Origin: Geosporobacter ferrireducens
GTDB lineage: Bacteria; Bacillota; Clostridia; Peptostreptococcales; Thermotaleaceae
NCBI RefSeq assembly: GCF_001750685.1
Contig: NZ_CP017269.1
Coordinates: 2,645,416-2,709,415 of the forward strand
Reading direction: 5' to 3'
DNA length: 64,000 bases
The notes beneath the pieces were generated by a model. It had not been told where the DNA came from. It was given only the letters and a program-made list of their open reading frames with translations, and searched no databases. Positions 58,646 to 64,000 of this stretch are shown piece by piece. The position numbers were made by a program, and so were the translations under genes. How positions within the stretch are numbered: position 1 is the stretch's first letter; each line of letters starts with the position of its first letter.

Positions 58646-60751
58646 TTAGTTAATCTCTTTAATCGAATATATATCTGAAAGCTCAACAGTGATTTTTTGT
58701 ATAATTGAATAATCATTCAAAGCATACTCTATCTCTGTTTTATCATTATTTGTTGAAATCACCTTGCATGGCAGTTCAACAATAAATTCACTTCCAAATC
58801 CTACTTTACTTTTTACATATATTTTGCCTCCAAGCACTTCCACAAAAGCTTTTGTTAGAGATAATCCAATGCCGCTGCCTTCGTACTTTCTTGTAAGCAG
58901 TTGGTCTGCCTGTTTATACCGCTCAAATATCGTTTTCTGTTTGTCTTCAGGAATACCAATCCCGCTATCCTTAACGGAAATCACAACTTTTTTACCTTTA
59001 TCTATCAAGCTTACCTGTATCGTGCCATTAGCGTCTGTAAACTTAATTGCATTTGAAAGAAGATTAAGCATAATTCTTTCGATGATATCAATATCACAAG
59101 CAATAATCTTTTTATTTACATTTGAAACATAACTAAGTTCAATCCTTCTATCTTTCACATAATCCATTACCGACAGCGTTATTATTTCAACAATGTTTAC
59201 AATATCGTAATTTCCCAAGTTTAACTCATAAAAATTTGCGTCAATTTTTGTTGTGTCGATAAGGTTATTTACGAGTCGCAGCAATCTGAAACAATTTTGC
59301 TTCATTGATTTTAAATGGTGAAAGTATTTATCACTTTCTAAAGATGGATTTCCTTTTAAATATAGGTCGAACAATTGTATTGCACTCAAGATAACATTAA
59401 GGGGCGTCCTTAGTTCATGAGACATATTTGCAATGTATTCACTTTTTGCGCTATTGGCATACTCCGCTTCTTCCTTTGCCTTTTTTAATTTTTCAGCCAT
59501 TGCCTTATGTTCTGTGATATCACGATAAACTCCTAAAATTCTATAAATTTTTCCTGTATCATCCTGAATCGGTATAAGCGTTGTATAAACATATATAATT
59601 CCTGCTGGCATGTTCAGGCACTCTTCATAGCTTTGCATGGTTCCTAATTCAATACACTTTCTATAATTGTTACTTAGAAGTTCTGCAGAATCCTTAGGAA
59701 AAACATCTTCTATATATTTGCCTGAAACATCTGCAGTTTTCATCCTCAGCCTCTTTTCAATAGAAGGATTGATGGCTACAATTTTGAAACGGTCATTTGA
59801 AATAGCATCCATAAGCAGAACCCCATTAGAGGTATTTTCAAAGACTTCTCGGTAACGCTGTTCACTTTGCCTTAATGCCTCTTCTACCCTTTTACGTTCT
59901 GCTACCTCCTCCTGCAGTTTAATCGTTCGTTCTCTAACTCTATTTTCAAGCAAATCATTTGTTTTACGAAGCTCATCTTCTGCTTTTTTCCGCTTCGTTA
60001 CATCCACTAGACTAAAAACAAGTCCCGTAACCGTGTCATGGGTGTTTTTCACAGGAATTAAATCCCAATCCCAATAGGTAATCCCTATCTCAGGGAACTC
60101 CTTGTACTCAAAGGGCTTTGCATAAAACGAAACGGGCTGGCCGGTTTCAATTACACGGCGGAAAATTACTTCATTATCAGCATATGGATAAAGAGCAAAA
60201 TGATTTTTTCCTATGTAAAATTCAGGAGGATGATTACCTGCATCGGCATACCGCTTATTCACACGAATAAAGTTGAAGTCCTTATCAAGATAAGCGATCA
60301 TAGCACTTTTTGTATCAAAAATACTCTCTAAAGTGTTCTTGACATCATATAATTCAGTTTCATTATTTTTATGTTTAGTTATATCCTGTACGATGCCTAT
60401 ATATTGATAAGGTATTCCTGCAGTATCATAATTAAATGATAAAATAAAACTTAACCATATAATAGAATGATCTTTTCGTATAATCTTCTTCTCAAAAGAA
60501 TAATGTGCTTTTCCCTGATCAAATAACAGGTCTTCAGATATTCTATCGATATTTTCTACGAAATAGATATCTTCTATGGCCATATTAATAAGCTCTTCTT
60601 CTGTATATCCTACGATTTCACTGAACTTTTTATTTACCTTAAGAAACTTTCCGGCTAGTGTGGAAGTATACACACCGATTTCCGGATGATCAAAAAGTGA
60701 TTTTAAAGCGGAGTCTTCAAAAGTGTAATCAAGCCTGTTGTTATCAGTCAT
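58646..60751 (-). CDS. Multi-PAS sensor histidine kinase
   Basis: 701 aa, no membrane helix, so cytosolic. PAS 1 about 10-130 (HPEIGVYTSTLAGKFLKVNK), PAS 2 about 135-255 (FDTKSAMIAYLDKDFNFIRV), a coiled coil (about 258-295), PAS 3 about 295-415 (YREVFENTSNGVLLMDAIS). HisKA has its His near 445 in ANMSHELRTPLNVIL. HATPase: LLSNAIKFTDANG (N), VKDSGIGIPE (G1), IFERYKQAD (F) and GSGIGLSLTKAFVE (G2). No response regulator is adjacent, so it is an orphan kinase, perhaps feeding sporulation or the neighbouring sigma genes (inference). Confidence 0.93.
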   Translation of the reverse strand: MTDNNRLDYTFEDSALKSLFDHPEIGVYTSTLAGKFLKVNKKFSEIVGYTEEELINMAIEDIYFVENIDRISEDLLFDQGKAHYSFEKKIIRKDHSIIWLSFILSFNYDTAGIPYQYIGIVQDITKHKNNETELYDVKNTLESIFDTKSAMIAYLDKDFNFIRVNKRYADAGNHPPEFYIGKNHFALYPYADNEVIFRRVIETGQPVSFYAKPFEYKEFPEIGITYWDWDLIPVKNTHDTVTGLVFSLVDVTKRKKAEDELRKTNDLLENRVRERTIKLQEEVAERKRVEEALRQSEQRYREVFENTSNGVLLMDAISNDRFKIVAINPSIEKRLRMKTADVSGKYIEDVFPKDSAELLSNNYRKCIELGTMQSYEECLNMPAGIIYVYTTLIPIQDDTGKIYRILGVYRDITEHKAMAEKLKKAKEEAEYANSAKSEYIANMSHELRTPLNVILSAIQLFDLYLKGNPSLESDKYFHHLKSMKQNCFRLLRLVNNLIDTTKIDANFYELNLGNYDIVNIVEIITLSVMDYVKDRRIELSYVSNVNKKIIACDIDIIERIMLNLLSNAIKFTDANGTIQVSLIDKGKKVVISVKDSGIGIPEDKQKTIFERYKQADQLLTRKYEGSGIGLSLTKAFVEVLGGKIYVKSKVGFGSEFIVELPCKVISTNNDKTEIEYALNDYSIIQKITVELSDIYSIKEIN

Positions 60752-61199
60752 CTTTTCACAATCCCCCCTAAATATGTAATATCTATAAATTCCTGAGATT
60801 TTTTTGTTGAAATTGAAAATTGAAATAAATTTTTTTTCATTATCATGCCTCCATCGAACATTCCCTTTATTCTTGGATTTTTATACTATTGGATCTCTAT
60901 GACTTGATCCGGTTTACATAGGGTTTCTTTTCAAAACTACTGTGAATTTAGATTTTTTCATCCACATGAACAGTATTTCTAGCCCTCGACCCTCATCCAT
61001 ATTAATCCTCCCATTGCCTTCTGTTTTAATATAAGTTTTTAGACTATTCGACTTATGATATGTAATAACCTTCCATAAAGTAGAAAGATATGGATAGGTT
61101 TTAATTGCAGGACTAGGAGATACTTCGTTTGCCGTGTTCAATCCTTTTTAATGAAAAGGCAAACGAAGTGTTTCCTCGCCTTAAAAATCATTAAAAGAA
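60752..61199. other. Intergenic region without a clear gene
   Basis: A 75-codon TTG-start frame at 60914-61141 exists, but its ribosome site overlaps the start and no family is recognised, so it is not called. No RNA gene or repeat seen. Confidence 0.4.
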
Positions 61200-61224
61200 A
61201 AAGGTGATTGCTAACATCACCTTT
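61200..61224 (-). terminator. Terminator after the split sigma operon
   Basis: AAAGGTGAT and ATCACCTTT arms with a 7-nt loop; minus-strand tail TTTTTCTTTT. Confidence 0.85.
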
Positions 61225-61318
61225 AAATCCAGTCATATTAATTATTTGAATGGTTTCAATGAATACAGCCCAATTGTAACTGTGGTGGGTTGGTAAAGTT
61301 GATTTTACTTTTTATAGT

Positions 61319-61543
61319 TTAATGAAAATATGCTGTTATATCTGAAACATTAGCAAATTGGAAGGTTTTGATGCAGTAAATCAGCTTGATGCTAAGTTCT
61401 TGAAAGTGGTCCTCGTTAAAATAGCCATTTACAATACTACTTTTATAAAGAATAGGTTTAAATATATCTAAAAAAGCACCGATTGCTTCATGATTTCCAC
61501 CTTTCGCTTGGTCAAAAAGATCTCTCATCGAAGTATCACTCAT
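61319..61543 (-). CDS. rsoA: RsoA-like sigma-factor partner (region 2 type)
   Basis: 74 aa. AKGGNHEAIGAFLDIFKPIL (about 13-32), then EDHFQELSIKLIYCIKTFQF, has the pattern of sigma region 2.1-2.2 (the core-polymerase clamp). It matches the small HTH_16/YvrHa group. In Bacillus subtilis RsoA joins SigO to form one working sigma factor. Here it is 13 bp after yvrJ, which follows the SigO-like gene, so a two-subunit sigma is encoded in one operon. Start ATG after AAAGGAGG. Confidence 0.8.
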   Translation of the reverse strand: MSDTSMRDLFDQAKGGNHEAIGAFLDIFKPILYKSSIVNGYFNEDHFQELSIKLIYCIKTFQFANVSDITAYFH

Positions 61544-61556
61544 AGGAGGACCTCCT

Positions 61557-61703
61557 TTACTGACTAGCCTTCACAAGGCTTTCAACTACCTGAATGAGGG
61601 TTTTGTTCAACTCATCCAGCTTCTTTTCTATCCGGATTAAAAGAAAGGCTGTTACGGCTATGGGGAAGCCTAAATTTGAAATACAGTCATTAAATATTTC
61701 CAT
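61557..61703 (-). CDS. yvrJ: YvrJ-family small membrane protein
   Basis: 48 aa, too short for routine ORF lists. Sequence MEIFNDCISNLGFPIAVTAF, then LLIRIEKKLDELNKTL and more. One helix (about 10-24) and a charged coiled-coil end are typical of YvrJ, which in Bacillus lies by sigO-rsoA. Ribosome site is GGAGGGG before ATG. It sits 2 bp after the SigO-like stop codon. Function unknown; possibly a membrane sensor or target of the split sigma factor. Confidence 0.85.
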   Translation of the reverse strand: MEIFNDCISNLGFPIAVTAFLLIRIEKKLDELNKTLIQVVESLVKASQ

Positions 61704-61705
61704 GC

Positions 61706-62242
61706 TTATTCCCCTCCGATCTGTTTTCTTAGTTTATTCAATGCAGTATTTTTAATTTTATTGACCGATTGTTTGCTGATGCCTAATTCTTTGGCAACCA
61801 GATGGTCTTTCTTGTCTTTAACAATACATTCATAAACAATTTGTTTTTGTCTCTCTGTAAGATTGTGAATAGCCTTTAATATGTTTCTATCTGTAAATAT
61901 TTCACAAAGATTCAGATACTCTTTATCCGCGTAGATTTCTTCTTCAAAATTAACAGAAGCATCGGGAATGGTATTGATTTTTTCTTCATCAAAGTTTTCG
62001 TCCAGGGTATTTAAATAGAGTCCTTCCTTTTCCCTGATCGTGCTTTCTTTTTTCCTTAAATCTATTGAAGCAAAGACAATAGATTTTTTTATGTAGCTGC
62101 ACAGACTGATTCTGAATAGATAATCATTAAATTTCTTATTGAGGCTTTCTAGGGATGTCCGATCCTTCAATAGGATGCCATTGATATATAGATCCCTATT
62201 TTCTGTATCCCCTTCTAGAAAGCGCCTTGCCAGGTGATCCAT
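61706..62242 (-). CDS. sigO: SigO-like sigma factor, region 4 subunit
   Basis: 178 aa. The C-terminal third is sigma region 4: AIHNLTERQKQIVYECIVKD, then HLVAKELGISKQSVNKIKNT and ALNKLRKQI, a helix-turn-helix. The N-terminal 110 residues (LNKKFNDYLFRISLCSYIKK, DLRKKESTIREKEG) lack a clear region 2, which the RsoA-like protein two genes down supplies. This matches the SigO/RsoA design of Bacillus. ATG after AAGGAGGGGATAAG. First gene of the operon; its promoter region has a 16-bp palindrome. Confidence 0.82.
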   Translation of the reverse strand: MDHLARRFLEGDTENRDLYINGILLKDRTSLESLNKKFNDYLFRISLCSYIKKSIVFASIDLRKKESTIREKEGLYLNTLDENFDEEKINTIPDASVNFEEEIYADKEYLNLCEIFTDRNILKAIHNLTERQKQIVYECIVKDKKDHLVAKELGISKQSVNKIKNTALNKLRKQIGGE

Positions 62243-62294
62243 CTTATCCCCTCCTTACGTAAACCTCCATACACTCTTTCCCAATTAGTAAAAA

Positions 62295-62310
62295 ACTTTA
62301 AGCTTAAAGT
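62295..62310. promoter_or_regulatory. 16-bp palindrome upstream of the sigma operon
   Basis: ACTTTAAGCTTAAAGT, perfect, 52 bp upstream of the SigO-like start; on the minus strand it runs into TTTTTT. Operator or small attenuator. The rest of the 62243-62559 gap holds the divergent promoter of the next gene (TATAAT 62504-62509, extended TGN-like context). Confidence 0.45.
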
Positions 62311-62559
62311 AATTAAGCTTCCCCTTACTATATAAGACGTGTTATACAAAAAATAATCACCCATATTTTGTAAAATTTTCTATTATTTTAAAAATATTTT
62401 CTATAGATTCGTTAATGGCTATTTATATCCAAGTTAAGCCTATAAAAGCTACACTGCAACAAGACATAAAATTCCACAATAAACCATATATGTAATAATA
62501 TGATATAATTATAGGTATTAAAATTTTGGTAAGATCTATAAACAATGAGGTGTTAGATT

Positions 62560-63084
62560 ATGAGAAAAGTATTACTTATTACATTTGTTTTTCTGCTAAT
62601 TGTTACAAATTTGATTGCTTTTAGATCACTGATGAAAGAAAGAGCATTGGAAAACTTTTATTTGGCTTCGACCTTTGAAGATTGCGTTGAATACACAGCA
62701 ATGACTTTAGAAGTTTTAAGTGATGAGCTTTTTTCGAAGAATAAAATAATCGATAATGAAGAATTTCTTGCATCTGTTTCACACGCCAAATCAGAAATAA
62801 TTATTTATACAAAAATCTTCCTCAATCTCCGTTTTATTGATAAGGAAAATCTATATAATGCAGACTTAACCCCATTAATTAATTATTTAGATAAGCTGTC
62901 TAAAAAAGAAATTATTTTACAGGAAGATATGAACATTTTGCGTGAAATAGTAAAATATAAAGAGGATTTAAATAATACAAAAATTATCTTAGAGAAAAAA
63001 AGTTTTTTTTATACCAAGTATTATCCTAATAAAAAGATCGTTGAAACTTTAGAAGCCATTAATACTTTGGTAAAGAACAGATAA
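62560..63084 (+). CDS. Unknown membrane-anchored helical protein
   Basis: 174 aa. A single N-terminal helix (about 4-22, LLITFVFLLIVTNLIAFRS) anchors a largely helical, charged external or cytosolic domain (FEDCVEYTAMTLEVLSDELF, EDMNILREIVKYKEDLNN). No lipobox. No family recognised. It is divergent from the SigO-like operon, with a 317-bp gap, which makes it a candidate target of the split sigma factor; that is inference. Ribosome site is a weak GAGGTG. Confidence 0.7.
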   Translation: MRKVLLITFVFLLIVTNLIAFRSLMKERALENFYLASTFEDCVEYTAMTLEVLSDELFSKNKIIDNEEFLASVSHAKSEIIIYTKIFLNLRFIDKENLYNADLTPLINYLDKLSKKEIILQEDMNILREIVKYKEDLNNTKIILEKKSFFYTKYYPNKKIVETLEAINTLVKNR

Positions 63085-63119
63085 AACCATCAATATAATA
63101 CTGATGGTTTTATCTGTTC
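63075..63119. terminator. Bidirectional terminator
   Basis: An 18-bp perfect stem (GAACAGATAAAACCATCA and its complement) with a 9-nt loop; it overlaps the stop codon of the plus-strand gene and ends 1 bp before the stop of the minus-strand gene. Confidence 0.8.
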
Positions 63120-63120
63120 T

Positions 63121-63516
63121 TTAATAGAAATAAGTTGCACAAATCCAAGGACTCTCTACAGGCACCCATCCTGCGCTGCTGTTAGGGCCACCCTCCATGT
63201 ATCTAAATTTTTGTCTCATTTCAATATATGTGGCTCCGTCTTTTGTAAGTCTTATGTAGGCGTCAAAATAAAAGGAGTCCATTAAAAGTGCTTGTTTTAC
63301 AGGATCACTACTAGCTCCAACTCCTTGTAGCGTTACGAAACCCGAGCCAATAGTTGTTAAAGATAAGAAAGCTGAAACAACTCTATATAAAGTCATTATG
63401 GGATCAACCTTTTGATATCTGTTTATAACGGCCTTACAATCATCATGAAGTGCTAAAACATCATCTGCTGTCAGTTTATTAGTTGTTACATATTTAACTT
63501 CACCTGGGTTTGGCAT
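63121..63516 (-). CDS. Unknown small protein
   Basis: 131 aa, no signal peptide. MPNPGEVKYVTTNKLTADDV starts it and SLTTIGSGFVTLQGVGASSD is a hydrophobic middle that may be a membrane-binding segment. It is rich in Tyr and ends YMEGGPNSSAGWVPVESPWI plus CATYFY. No family recognised. ATG with AGGAGAGGTTTAAT. Flanked by a terminator on one side and a 63617-63685 inverted repeat upstream. Confidence 0.65.
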   Translation of the reverse strand: MPNPGEVKYVTTNKLTADDVLALHDDCKAVINRYQKVDPIMTLYRVVSAFLSLTTIGSGFVTLQGVGASSDPVKQALLMDSFYFDAYIRLTKDGATYIEMRQKFRYMEGGPNSSAGWVPVESPWICATYFY

Positions 63517-63616
63517 ATTAAACCTCTCCTTTTCATTTTGTATTTTTATATTTTGTTAGGCTCTTCCACTCTCTGGCCAGTTCGTTTTGCCCTACACTAG
63601 ATAAGAAGATTAAATG

Positions 63617-63685
63617 GGTAAATAAATCAACTACGTGGCAAAAATTTTTTTTAAATTTTTTTCAAAAGTGGTTGATTTATTTACC
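63617..63685. repeat. Inverted repeat with A/T-tract core
   Basis: GGTAAATAAATCAAC (63617-63631) and its exact complement (63671-63685), with further wobble pairing inside and a centre of long A and T tracts. Upstream of the 131-aa gene and next to REP-like repeats. May be a MITE end pair, an operator or a strong hairpin. Confidence 0.6.
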
Positions 63686-63739
63686 GCTTTATCTGTTTTA
63701 TATAGAGTGGAGTTCCAACAAAATAGGAAAATATTAAAT

Positions 63740-63786: not shown

Positions 63787-63835
63787 TTGACACGTGTTCG
63801 TCCATATGATATAACATATCATAGAGGTGGTTTTT

Positions 63836-64000
63836 ATGCCAAGAATGCCAAGGATAAAAAGCAAAAGCGGAATATATCATATTGTTATGAGAGGAATAAA
63901 TCGTCAAACTGTGTTTGAAGATGAGGAAGATTGCCATAAGTTTATTCAAACCTTGCAAAAATATAGAGAGATTAGTGAGTACAAATTATATGCCTATTGT
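63836..64000 (+). CDS. REP-associated tyrosine transposase (IS200-like, partial)
   Basis: The first 55 codons; the gene continues past the window. MPRMPRIKSKSGIYHIVMRG then INRQTVFEDEEDCHKFI matches the N-terminus of RAYT/Y1 transposases (SGIYHVMLRGNNRQ type). HUH and catalytic Tyr residues must lie beyond the edge. Strong ribosome site AGAGGTGG. It is expected to process REP hairpins as single strands, and tandem REP-like repeats are directly upstream. Confidence 0.9.
   Translation, partial: MPRMPRIKSKSGIYHIVMRGINRQTVFEDEEDCHKFIQTLQKYREISEYKLYAYC

Follow-up and report, generated by a model that had tools for sequence, protein, structure and literature searches.

A split sigma factor operon with an internal yvrJ gene probably controls dispersed cassettes of leaderless bacteriocin-like proteins in Geosporobacter ferrireducens and related Clostridia

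What does a sigma factor encoded in two separate pieces control in Clostridia? Split sigma factors have their standard example in SigO-RsoA, whose known regulon is tiny, and we know of no reason for its being split. The question is raised by a three-gene operon in a 64,000-nucleotide stretch of the Geosporobacter ferrireducens genome (contig NZ_CP017269.1, positions 2,645,416 to 2,709,415; hereafter the window), in which genes for a SigO-like and an RsoA-like protein flank a gene for the small protein YvrJ. The analysis presented here suggests that this two-subunit sigma factor probably controls its own operon together with cassettes encoding leaderless, bacteriocin-like effectors and their candidate immunity proteins, represented in the window by the genes p131 and p174 (Table 1).

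The initial annotation of this locus had described a region-4 protein lacking region 2 and a region-2-like protein, with YvrJ encoded between them; open reading frames (ORFs) and Pfam agree on all three minus-strand genes and their order, the intergenic gaps being 2 nucleotides (nt; sigO-yvrJ) and 13 nt (yvrJ-rsoA). Pfam places Sigma70_r4 at amino acids (aa) 124-173 of the 178-aa protein (E 1.5e-7), identifies the 48-aa protein as YvrJ (E 9.4e-16) and assigns the 74-aa protein to HTH_16 (E 2.3e-12). Residues 1-115 of the 178-aa protein, taken alone, match zero Pfam families at E 0.1, and their sole NCBIfam match is an unrelated model (E 0.17). A profile of 19 SigO-like homologues reaches 13 distinct sigma-factor sequences of solved structure at E 0.001, with its best stretches within profile positions 87-177, the C-terminal part that holds region 4 (top match FliA, 1rp3, E 1.5e-8, positions 117-175). 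The corresponding profile of 18 RsoA-like proteins leads weakly to sigma region 2 (SigF, 1l0o_C residues 11-77, E 2.7e-4; SigW, E 0.0043), and its remaining matches to E 1 are mixed and weaker. Because the two profiles match region 4 and region 2 respectively, and the N-terminal half of the larger protein falls in no family, the split is real at the sequence level. The presence of a recognisable region 2 in this larger protein had been named beforehand as an observation that would speak against a split; Pfam, NCBIfam and the homologue profile were used to look for one, and none was found.

Two results qualify this picture. The NCBIfam model TIGR02937 (sigma70-ECF, where ECF stands for extracytoplasmic function) spans residues 3-175 of the whole 178-aa protein at 37.8 bits, below its cut-off of 42.9. 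The AlphaFold model of the protein (predicted local distance difference test score, pLDDT, 76; predicted template modelling score, pTM, 0.34) consists of a helical N-terminal half and region 4; a Foldseek search with it recovers region 4 clearly, finds nothing firm for the N-terminal half and gives no match at E 0.001, its alignments running along whole ECF sigma factors at a root-mean-square deviation of about 20 Å. Since both the sub-cut-off match and these badly superposed alignments extend over the full length, the N-terminal half may contain a decayed remnant of region 2.

The operon, which thus withstood the sequence comparisons, is also kept in other genomes. Of 198 related genomes, 14 encode a SigO-like protein (E 1e-10), and in a sample of 391 genomes across the class the SigO profile is found in eight (E 1e-12), three of these through region 4 only. 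The order sigO-(yvrJ)-rsoA repeats in the loci that were fetched, one relative having three operons inside about 11 kb. The G. ferrireducens genome holds the whole operon in the window only, and altogether two complete and two broken sigO-like genes: the copy at 4248948 has lost yvrJ and rsoA, that at 3428521 keeps yvrJ-rsoA with sigO mostly gone, and that at 5346664 is truncated. YvrJ is present in nine loci with sigO and/or rsoA (the window, L016, L082, L083, L084, L086, L092, L098 and L148); a gene for a BhlA-type holin replaces it in six (L090, L091, L093, L094, L097 and L099) and is likewise present in L140, a locus with a one-piece sigma factor. None of these loci has both, and eight have neither in the fetched stretch (L014, L015, L085, L087, L088, L089, L095 and L096), several of them broken. 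BhlA was recognised by Pfam in L091 (E 6.5e-34) and L097 (E 1.1e-31), and by profile in L090, L093, L094, L099 and L140.

Some further observations concern these copies. In L097 (2661-3305) a second sigma-like gene lies beside the split pair as two ORFs, a 128-aa HTH_16 part and a region-4-like part of 81 aa, which may be the pieces of a broken one-piece factor. Tyrosine-recombinase-like fragments, recognised by eye, lie beside sigO copies in L015 (5555-5779) and L083 (8750-9636) and may bear on cassette movement. A SigO-like and RsoA-like pair is also present in an unverified gut record labelled bacteriophage (L180, 1945-2660).

The initial annotation had proposed a search for a common promoter motif. 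Comparison of the copies yields one, TGGTTGAT/C...TTATMTAG, upstream of sigO operons and, divergently placed, of small genes. A promoter-like motif of this kind precedes most sigO operon copies looked at, which suggests that the operon is autoregulated; the instance ahead of the window's operon was missed by a stricter version of the pattern. At the small genes the -10 element leads directly into a near-invariant box of 23 bases, GTGTARGRCRAAACRARYTGGCC. The combined -10/box pattern, with up to three mismatches, occurs in 13 of 198 relatives and in 0 of 198 with a reversed control, and sigO is present in 10 of the 13 box genomes (Fisher P 1.3e-11, genomes taken as independent). Two further box genomes have a sigma factor of their own: G009 carries a more divergent sigO-yvrJ-rsoA operon below the sigO search threshold, and in G134 (Tepidibacter) the sigma factor is in one piece, its gene being followed by those for a BhlA holin and an Amidase_2 protein and then by the box and a 137-aa effector. 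The exact box pattern, GTGTARGRCRAAAYRARYTGGCC, was found in 17 stretches of a public genome collection and in none of a viral collection. Across the G. ferrireducens genome the stricter promoter pattern gives eight matches against three for the control, so that the sites outside known loci (2477435, 2551315 and 3815887) are taken as chance; with the wrong spacing there are 0 matches, and a relaxed pattern (three mismatches; 112 matches against 89 for the control) was dropped.

Downstream of the -10 element the leader sequences may fold into an outer stem, UGUAAGRC with GYCUUACA, that encloses a palindromic core. Over 40 leader sequences the best stem has on average 5.9 pairs, compared with 3.6 once the 3' part is shuffled; the leader in the window and its closest kin form only four pairs, which is not significant singly (window p 0.27). 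In a model-based alignment of 36 sequences 87% of cells pair and three of eight pairs show changes on both sides, a number equalled in 15 of 500 shuffles, with the covariation score reached by 0 of 500; this result is favoured because the alignment was fitted to the structure, by a model built from 13 of the 36 sequences. Rfam gives only sub-threshold chance matches in the window stretch, none at gathering score. The conserved box may function either in the RNA, as a leader, or in the DNA, as an operator.

What lies behind the box is variable. From the 41 box sites in the fetched loci an automatic rule (longest ORF of at least 40 aa with its start within 140 nt) yields 30 ORFs, starting 46-71 nt past the box, including two fragments that are counted as effectors (L130, 40 aa; L143, at a contig end). 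Their Pfam domains include YkuD (5.9e-11; L,D-transpeptidases), SH3_3 (4.2e-9), Amidase_2 (2.6e-19), Amidase_3 (3.5e-40) and LysM (3e-8, in a protein that also has CARDB); there is further a C39-like peptidase below the cut-off and a protein of 405 aa that weakly matches a metallopeptidase (E 0.043). Fourteen candidate effectors have 119-145 aa; those of them that were scanned gave no credible Pfam family, and 11 of the 14 contain a hydrophobic stretch over threshold, the exceptions being p131 and the proteins of L015 and L091. An N-terminal signal is missing from all 31 effectors considered, the 30 automatic ones and one chosen by hand (P 6e-4), as judged by a simple hydropathy rule rather than SignalP; the baseline, an N-terminal anchor or signal in 21% of 303 ORFs, is limited to 100-400 aa, and the counted proteins vary more widely in length. 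Five box sites occur in G. ferrireducens itself, with an intact-looking gene at three (p131 in the window, a 139-aa protein in L015 and a 240-aa protein in L137). The p131 protein has a weak relative (E 0.003-0.005) in Thermotalea, a box-linked protein of 130 aa whose own relationship to another one, of 119 aa, is clearer (E 1e-9).

Convergent neighbours of the effectors were picked by rule, as the longest ORF on the reverse strand that has at least 60 aa and lies within 700 nt. Such a gene exists for 21 of the 30 automatic effectors, and in 18 of these 21 cases its product begins with an anchor or signal (binomial P 6e-10, the baseline being 21%). The window's p131 and p174 are an end-to-end pair with 36 nt between them, and an inverted repeat at 63070-63125 is probably their shared terminator. 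The initial annotation had described the gene divergent from the operon as encoding a membrane protein, in agreement with the N-terminal anchor of p174, which has no credible family match in Pfam, NCBIfam or PHROG. Particular effectors keep particular partners: YkuD effectors go with 274/279-aa proteins (L082 and L083, one genus), SH3 effectors with DUF881-type proteins of 183/188 aa (L083 and L099, different families), and effectors of 145/144/136 aa with partners of 162/165/166 aa (L086, L136 and L093, two families). In this genome an effector-less box (L057) precedes a gene for a 274-aa protein that shares 74% identity with the YkuD partner of L082, which is what an orphan immunity gene would look like. 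The convergent partner of the C39-like effector in L087 (8470-9552) is an N-terminally anchored leucine-rich-repeat protein (LRR_4, 2.2e-19).

Table 1. Positions of the split sigma factor operon and of the associated cassette elements in the window
Feature	Position	Strand	Description
rsoA-like gene, 74 aa	61319..61543	-	HTH_16 / sigma region-2-like
yvrJ, 48 aa	61557..61703	-	Small membrane-type protein; YvrJ by Pfam; position held by a BhlA holin gene in other families
sigO-like gene, 178 aa	61706..62242	-	Region 4; alpha-helical N-terminal half; no recognisable region 2
Candidate autoregulatory operon promoter, GGGTGATT...TTATATAG	62328..62362	-	Degenerate motif instance; counterparts at the same place in other copies
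p174, candidate immunity protein	62560..63084	+	N-terminal membrane anchor; convergent to p131
p131, leaderless candidate effector, 131 aa	63121..63516	-	Behind promoter and box
5'-leader box, GTGTAGGGCAAAACGAACTGGCCAG	63553..63597	-	Conserved, with predicted outer stem
p131 promoter, GTTGATTTATT...TTATCTAG	63597..63631	-	Motif
Second, divergent promoter of the same type	63670..63705	+	Motif; here with no recognised target gene

The counterpart of the second, plus-strand promoter in Table 1 sits upstream of sigO in the broken copies L015 and L016. Just past it, at 63827-64000, the window contains an ORF start that resembles by eye a transposase associated with repetitive extragenic palindromic (REP) sequences, preceded by a 'gtgacaaggggacgggg' repeat. 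On the other side of the operon the initial annotation had pointed to an orphan PAS kinase (58646-60751); only its domains were looked at and nothing ties it to the system, and the link is set aside.

Does the association hold outside the Clostridia? A SigO protein search of plasmids gave eight records, of which five were fetched (L175-L179), and two further SigO-bearing plasmids of Bacilli came from a search with one effector (L181) and from a YvrJ search (L184). A leaderless protein with a membrane protein or lipoprotein as partner is present on five of these seven plasmids, two of which are near-identical and one of which, L181, was found through its effector and is for that reason not an independent test of it. 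L176 has a 130-aa effector that is a relative of a clostridial one (8.7e-12), together with a membrane protein encoded convergently; L181 encodes a 154-aa homologue of a clostridial effector (4.1e-21) and a convergent signal-bearing protein; and in L184 the operon is followed by a lysozyme gene (2e-17) with a convergent lipoprotein. The near-identical L177 and L178 carry sigO-yvrJ with a 63-aa gene in the rsoA position, then an effector with a weak, sub-cut-off NAGPA match and an 80-aa membrane protein on the same strand. A profile supports the RsoA subunit in L184 (6e-9; order sigO-yvrJ-rsoA) and L181 (4e-5) and does so barely in L175 (0.009); in L176, L177 and L178 the subunit was assigned from its size and position only. 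On the Lysinibacillus and Priestia plasmids its identity is positional. In L175 and L176 yvrJ lies upstream of sigO, and in L181 YvrJ was not found. Sequences of the GGTTGT/GGTTGA...CTTTATA type were seen by eye ahead of several plasmid effectors and sigma genes. Four plasmids found through YvrJ (L182, L183, L185 and L186) had no SigO, and a plasmid search with another single effector gave no match.

We know of no established function for YvrJ. It has a weak match to a PHROG holin family (E 5.8e-4), it occupies the position of BhlA, and in one locus (L189) it is paired with an Amidase_2 gene; these three points weakly suggest that it is a release protein. Across the class YvrJ was found in 69 of 391 sampled genomes. 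Around the 30 best loci of that survey, 78 same-strand neighbours were counted (up to two per side), among them DUF1659 (26), DUF2922 (23) and sigma factors, so that a place beside DUF1659/DUF2922 is its commonest context. A third yvrJ gene of the G. ferrireducens genome follows a one-piece 191-aa sigma factor and two genes for proteins of 71-77 aa, one of which matches DUF1659 (L018, 3947-5324; genome position about 2286-2287 kb).

The split architecture, the common promoter and box, the co-occurrence with sigO, the missing signals, the anchored neighbours and the consistent pairing can be read directly in the DNA. In the mechanism that we propose, the SigO-like protein would supply region 4 for -35 recognition and the RsoA-like protein region 2 for -10 recognition and melting, and the holoenzyme formed with both would amplify its own operon and switch on every dispersed cassette that carries promoter and box. 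Each cassette would encode a small signal-less protein that attacks competing bacteria at their wall or membrane. In most cassettes a convergent gene would add an immunity protein, anchored in the membrane or of lipoprotein type, that shields the producer; the antibacterial action and the immunity are suggested by the effector domains, the missing signals, the pairing and the turnover of cassettes. The effectors would leave the cell through YvrJ or BhlA, or after permeabilisation of the membrane by either.

Several results weigh against this proposal. At 11 of the 41 box sites the rule gave no ORF, and by eye a gene looked intact at only two of them (L146 and L148), the others holding truncated relatives of known effectors (L138 and L131), fragments or nothing. 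Nine of the 30 automatic effectors had no convergent ORF by rule, several because the stretch ends; two neighbours are of housekeeping type (ribokinase-like in L137 and SbcC-like in L092, named by eye), and that of L130 is a 60-aa ORF with no signal. No effector was seen on plasmids L175 and L179. The window's own p131 has zero matches in Pfam, NCBIfam and PHROG, only the weak relative described above and no hydrophobic stretch over threshold, and its AlphaFold structure was poor (pLDDT 55) and was not used. YvrJ does not appear to be a BhlA homologue, the two profiles being dissimilar (hhalign probability 0.1%), and no endolysin family was present among its 78 counted neighbours. Finally, box and sigO do not always coincide: four sigO genomes (G017, G031, G059 and G082) have no box at three mismatches, and in G015, with a three-mismatch box, sigO was not found.

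These last exceptions, together with the one-piece sigma factor that accompanies the box in G134, are what would be expected if the three genes encode a split sigma factor and the box promoters are served by another one, their linkage being incidental. We regard this as improbable, given that the same promoter type precedes most sigO operons looked at, that box and sigO-side promoters occur as divergent pairs inside single intergenic regions, and that box and sigO co-occur as strongly as they do (P 1.3e-11). The cassettes could instead be relics of phage- or plasmid-derived lysis modules, with the sigma pair, YvrJ/BhlA and the wall enzymes as former late genes that play no part in competition. 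The order of BhlA and amidase in L140, the pairing of YvrJ with Amidase_2 in L189, the presence of operons on plasmids and the RsoA-like matches in the bacteriophage-labelled record and in two viral contigs are all in keeping with such an origin; against it, the viral collection does not contain the exact box pattern, many of the effectors are something other than lysins, no phage structural genes were noticed by eye among ORF starts (no systematic search was made), and we know of no anchored convergent partners in phage lysis cassettes. It is, in our view, a very improbable account.

A self-directed regulon is unlikely. In this reading the producer itself would be the target of its wall enzymes and small proteins, in autolysis, sporulation, stress or competence, and the membrane proteins encoded convergently would be regulators, either of these proteins or of the sigma factor. 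One source groups SigO-RsoA of Bacillus subtilis with acid stress (PMC10141391), a role that concerns the producer itself. YvrJ is common where the split pair is absent (69 of 391 genomes, against 8 of 391 for the split-pair profile), mostly beside DUF1659/DUF2922, and some box genes have no immunity candidate. Set against these points, effectors vary between loci with promoter and box held constant, copies decay and duplicate, and families of effectors and partners recur jointly across genomes; for these reasons bacterial competition fits better than housekeeping, and control of leaderless effector and immunity cassettes by the split sigma factor remains the reading that we prefer.

A wider and more tentative interpretation, to which we give somewhat less than even weight, is that SigO-YvrJ-RsoA is the control-and-release core of a polymorphic antibacterial system across the Bacillota. 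The fixed promoter, joined in Clostridia by the structured 5' leader, would be a plug-in module, and a leaderless wall- or membrane-active protein captured behind it with an anchored partner would become a weapon, let out by YvrJ or BhlA. The SigO regulon of B. subtilis, which comprises the leaderless OxdC and the membrane protein YvrL, would be a domesticated descendant. In these Clostridia the likely SigO regulon can now be read from promoter and box. If the preferred reading is true, relatives of a split factor with a tiny known regulon govern antibacterial proteins that are numerous, evolve fast and come with immunity genes of their own; a DNA search with the 23-base box would be enough to find such proteins, and YvrJ gains a testable role. 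Titles and the beginnings of abstracts in the literature gave no link of SigO-RsoA or YvrJ to bacteriocins, a limited negative that leaves most subscription papers outside its scope.

How does the locus compare with known systems? SigO-RsoA (YvrI-YvrHa) of B. subtilis is reported to transcribe oxdC-yvrL, yvrJ and its own operon (PMC8103513). Regions 4 and 2 are carried in both cases by separate small co-encoded proteins with YvrJ linked to them, and transcription of the own operon, reported there, is suggested here by promoter sequence; unlike in B. subtilis, YvrJ lies here between both subunits in one operon, and the predicted targets are effector and immunity cassettes rather than oxdC-yvrL.

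The nearest documented arrangement appears to be UviA-UviB-Bcn5 of Clostridium perfringens and C. algidicarnis, for which a leaderless bacteriocin is described alongside a sigma factor, a holin of the BhlA family and an endolysin (PMC9527704). Common to both are a dedicated sigma factor, a small holin-type protein (a candidate here), a leaderless candidate bacteriocin and wall-active domains. The window differs in its two-piece sigma factor, which replaces a one-piece Group V factor, in YvrJ taking the place of BhlA, and, with its relatives, in many short exchangeable effectors, convergent immunity candidates and a conserved leader box. An endolysin, absent by Pfam from the six window proteins at 58649-63516, is present in the Tepidibacter locus L140 (2333-4345), which has a one-piece sigma factor, BhlA, Amidase_2, a LysM-like stretch (by eye), the box and a 137-aa effector. 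This locus comes close to bridging the split-sigma cassettes and UviA-UviB-Bcn5, and its sigma factor, which scores 51.8 bits over its length against the BotR model (cut-off 138.35), is consistent with kinship to Group V.

Toxin loci of the TcdR-TcdE type, for which an autoregulated Group V sigma factor and a holin for signal-less proteins are described (PMC4885068, PMC10467148, PMC3369941), share with the window a sigma factor whose autoregulation is suggested here by promoter sequence and a candidate holin serving proteins that lack export signals; they differ in that here no large toxin was seen, the sigma factor is split and the predicted targets are bacteria. Polymorphic toxin-immunity systems are characterised by variable effectors, adjacent cognate-looking partners, orphan partners and decayed cassettes. 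The loci described here resemble them in all these respects: their effectors vary and go with specific neighbours, some partners are orphans and some cassettes have decayed. The N-terminal trafficking domain shared within such systems was not noticed here; what the diverse effectors have in common is the promoter and leader ahead of their genes, in place of a domain of the proteins.

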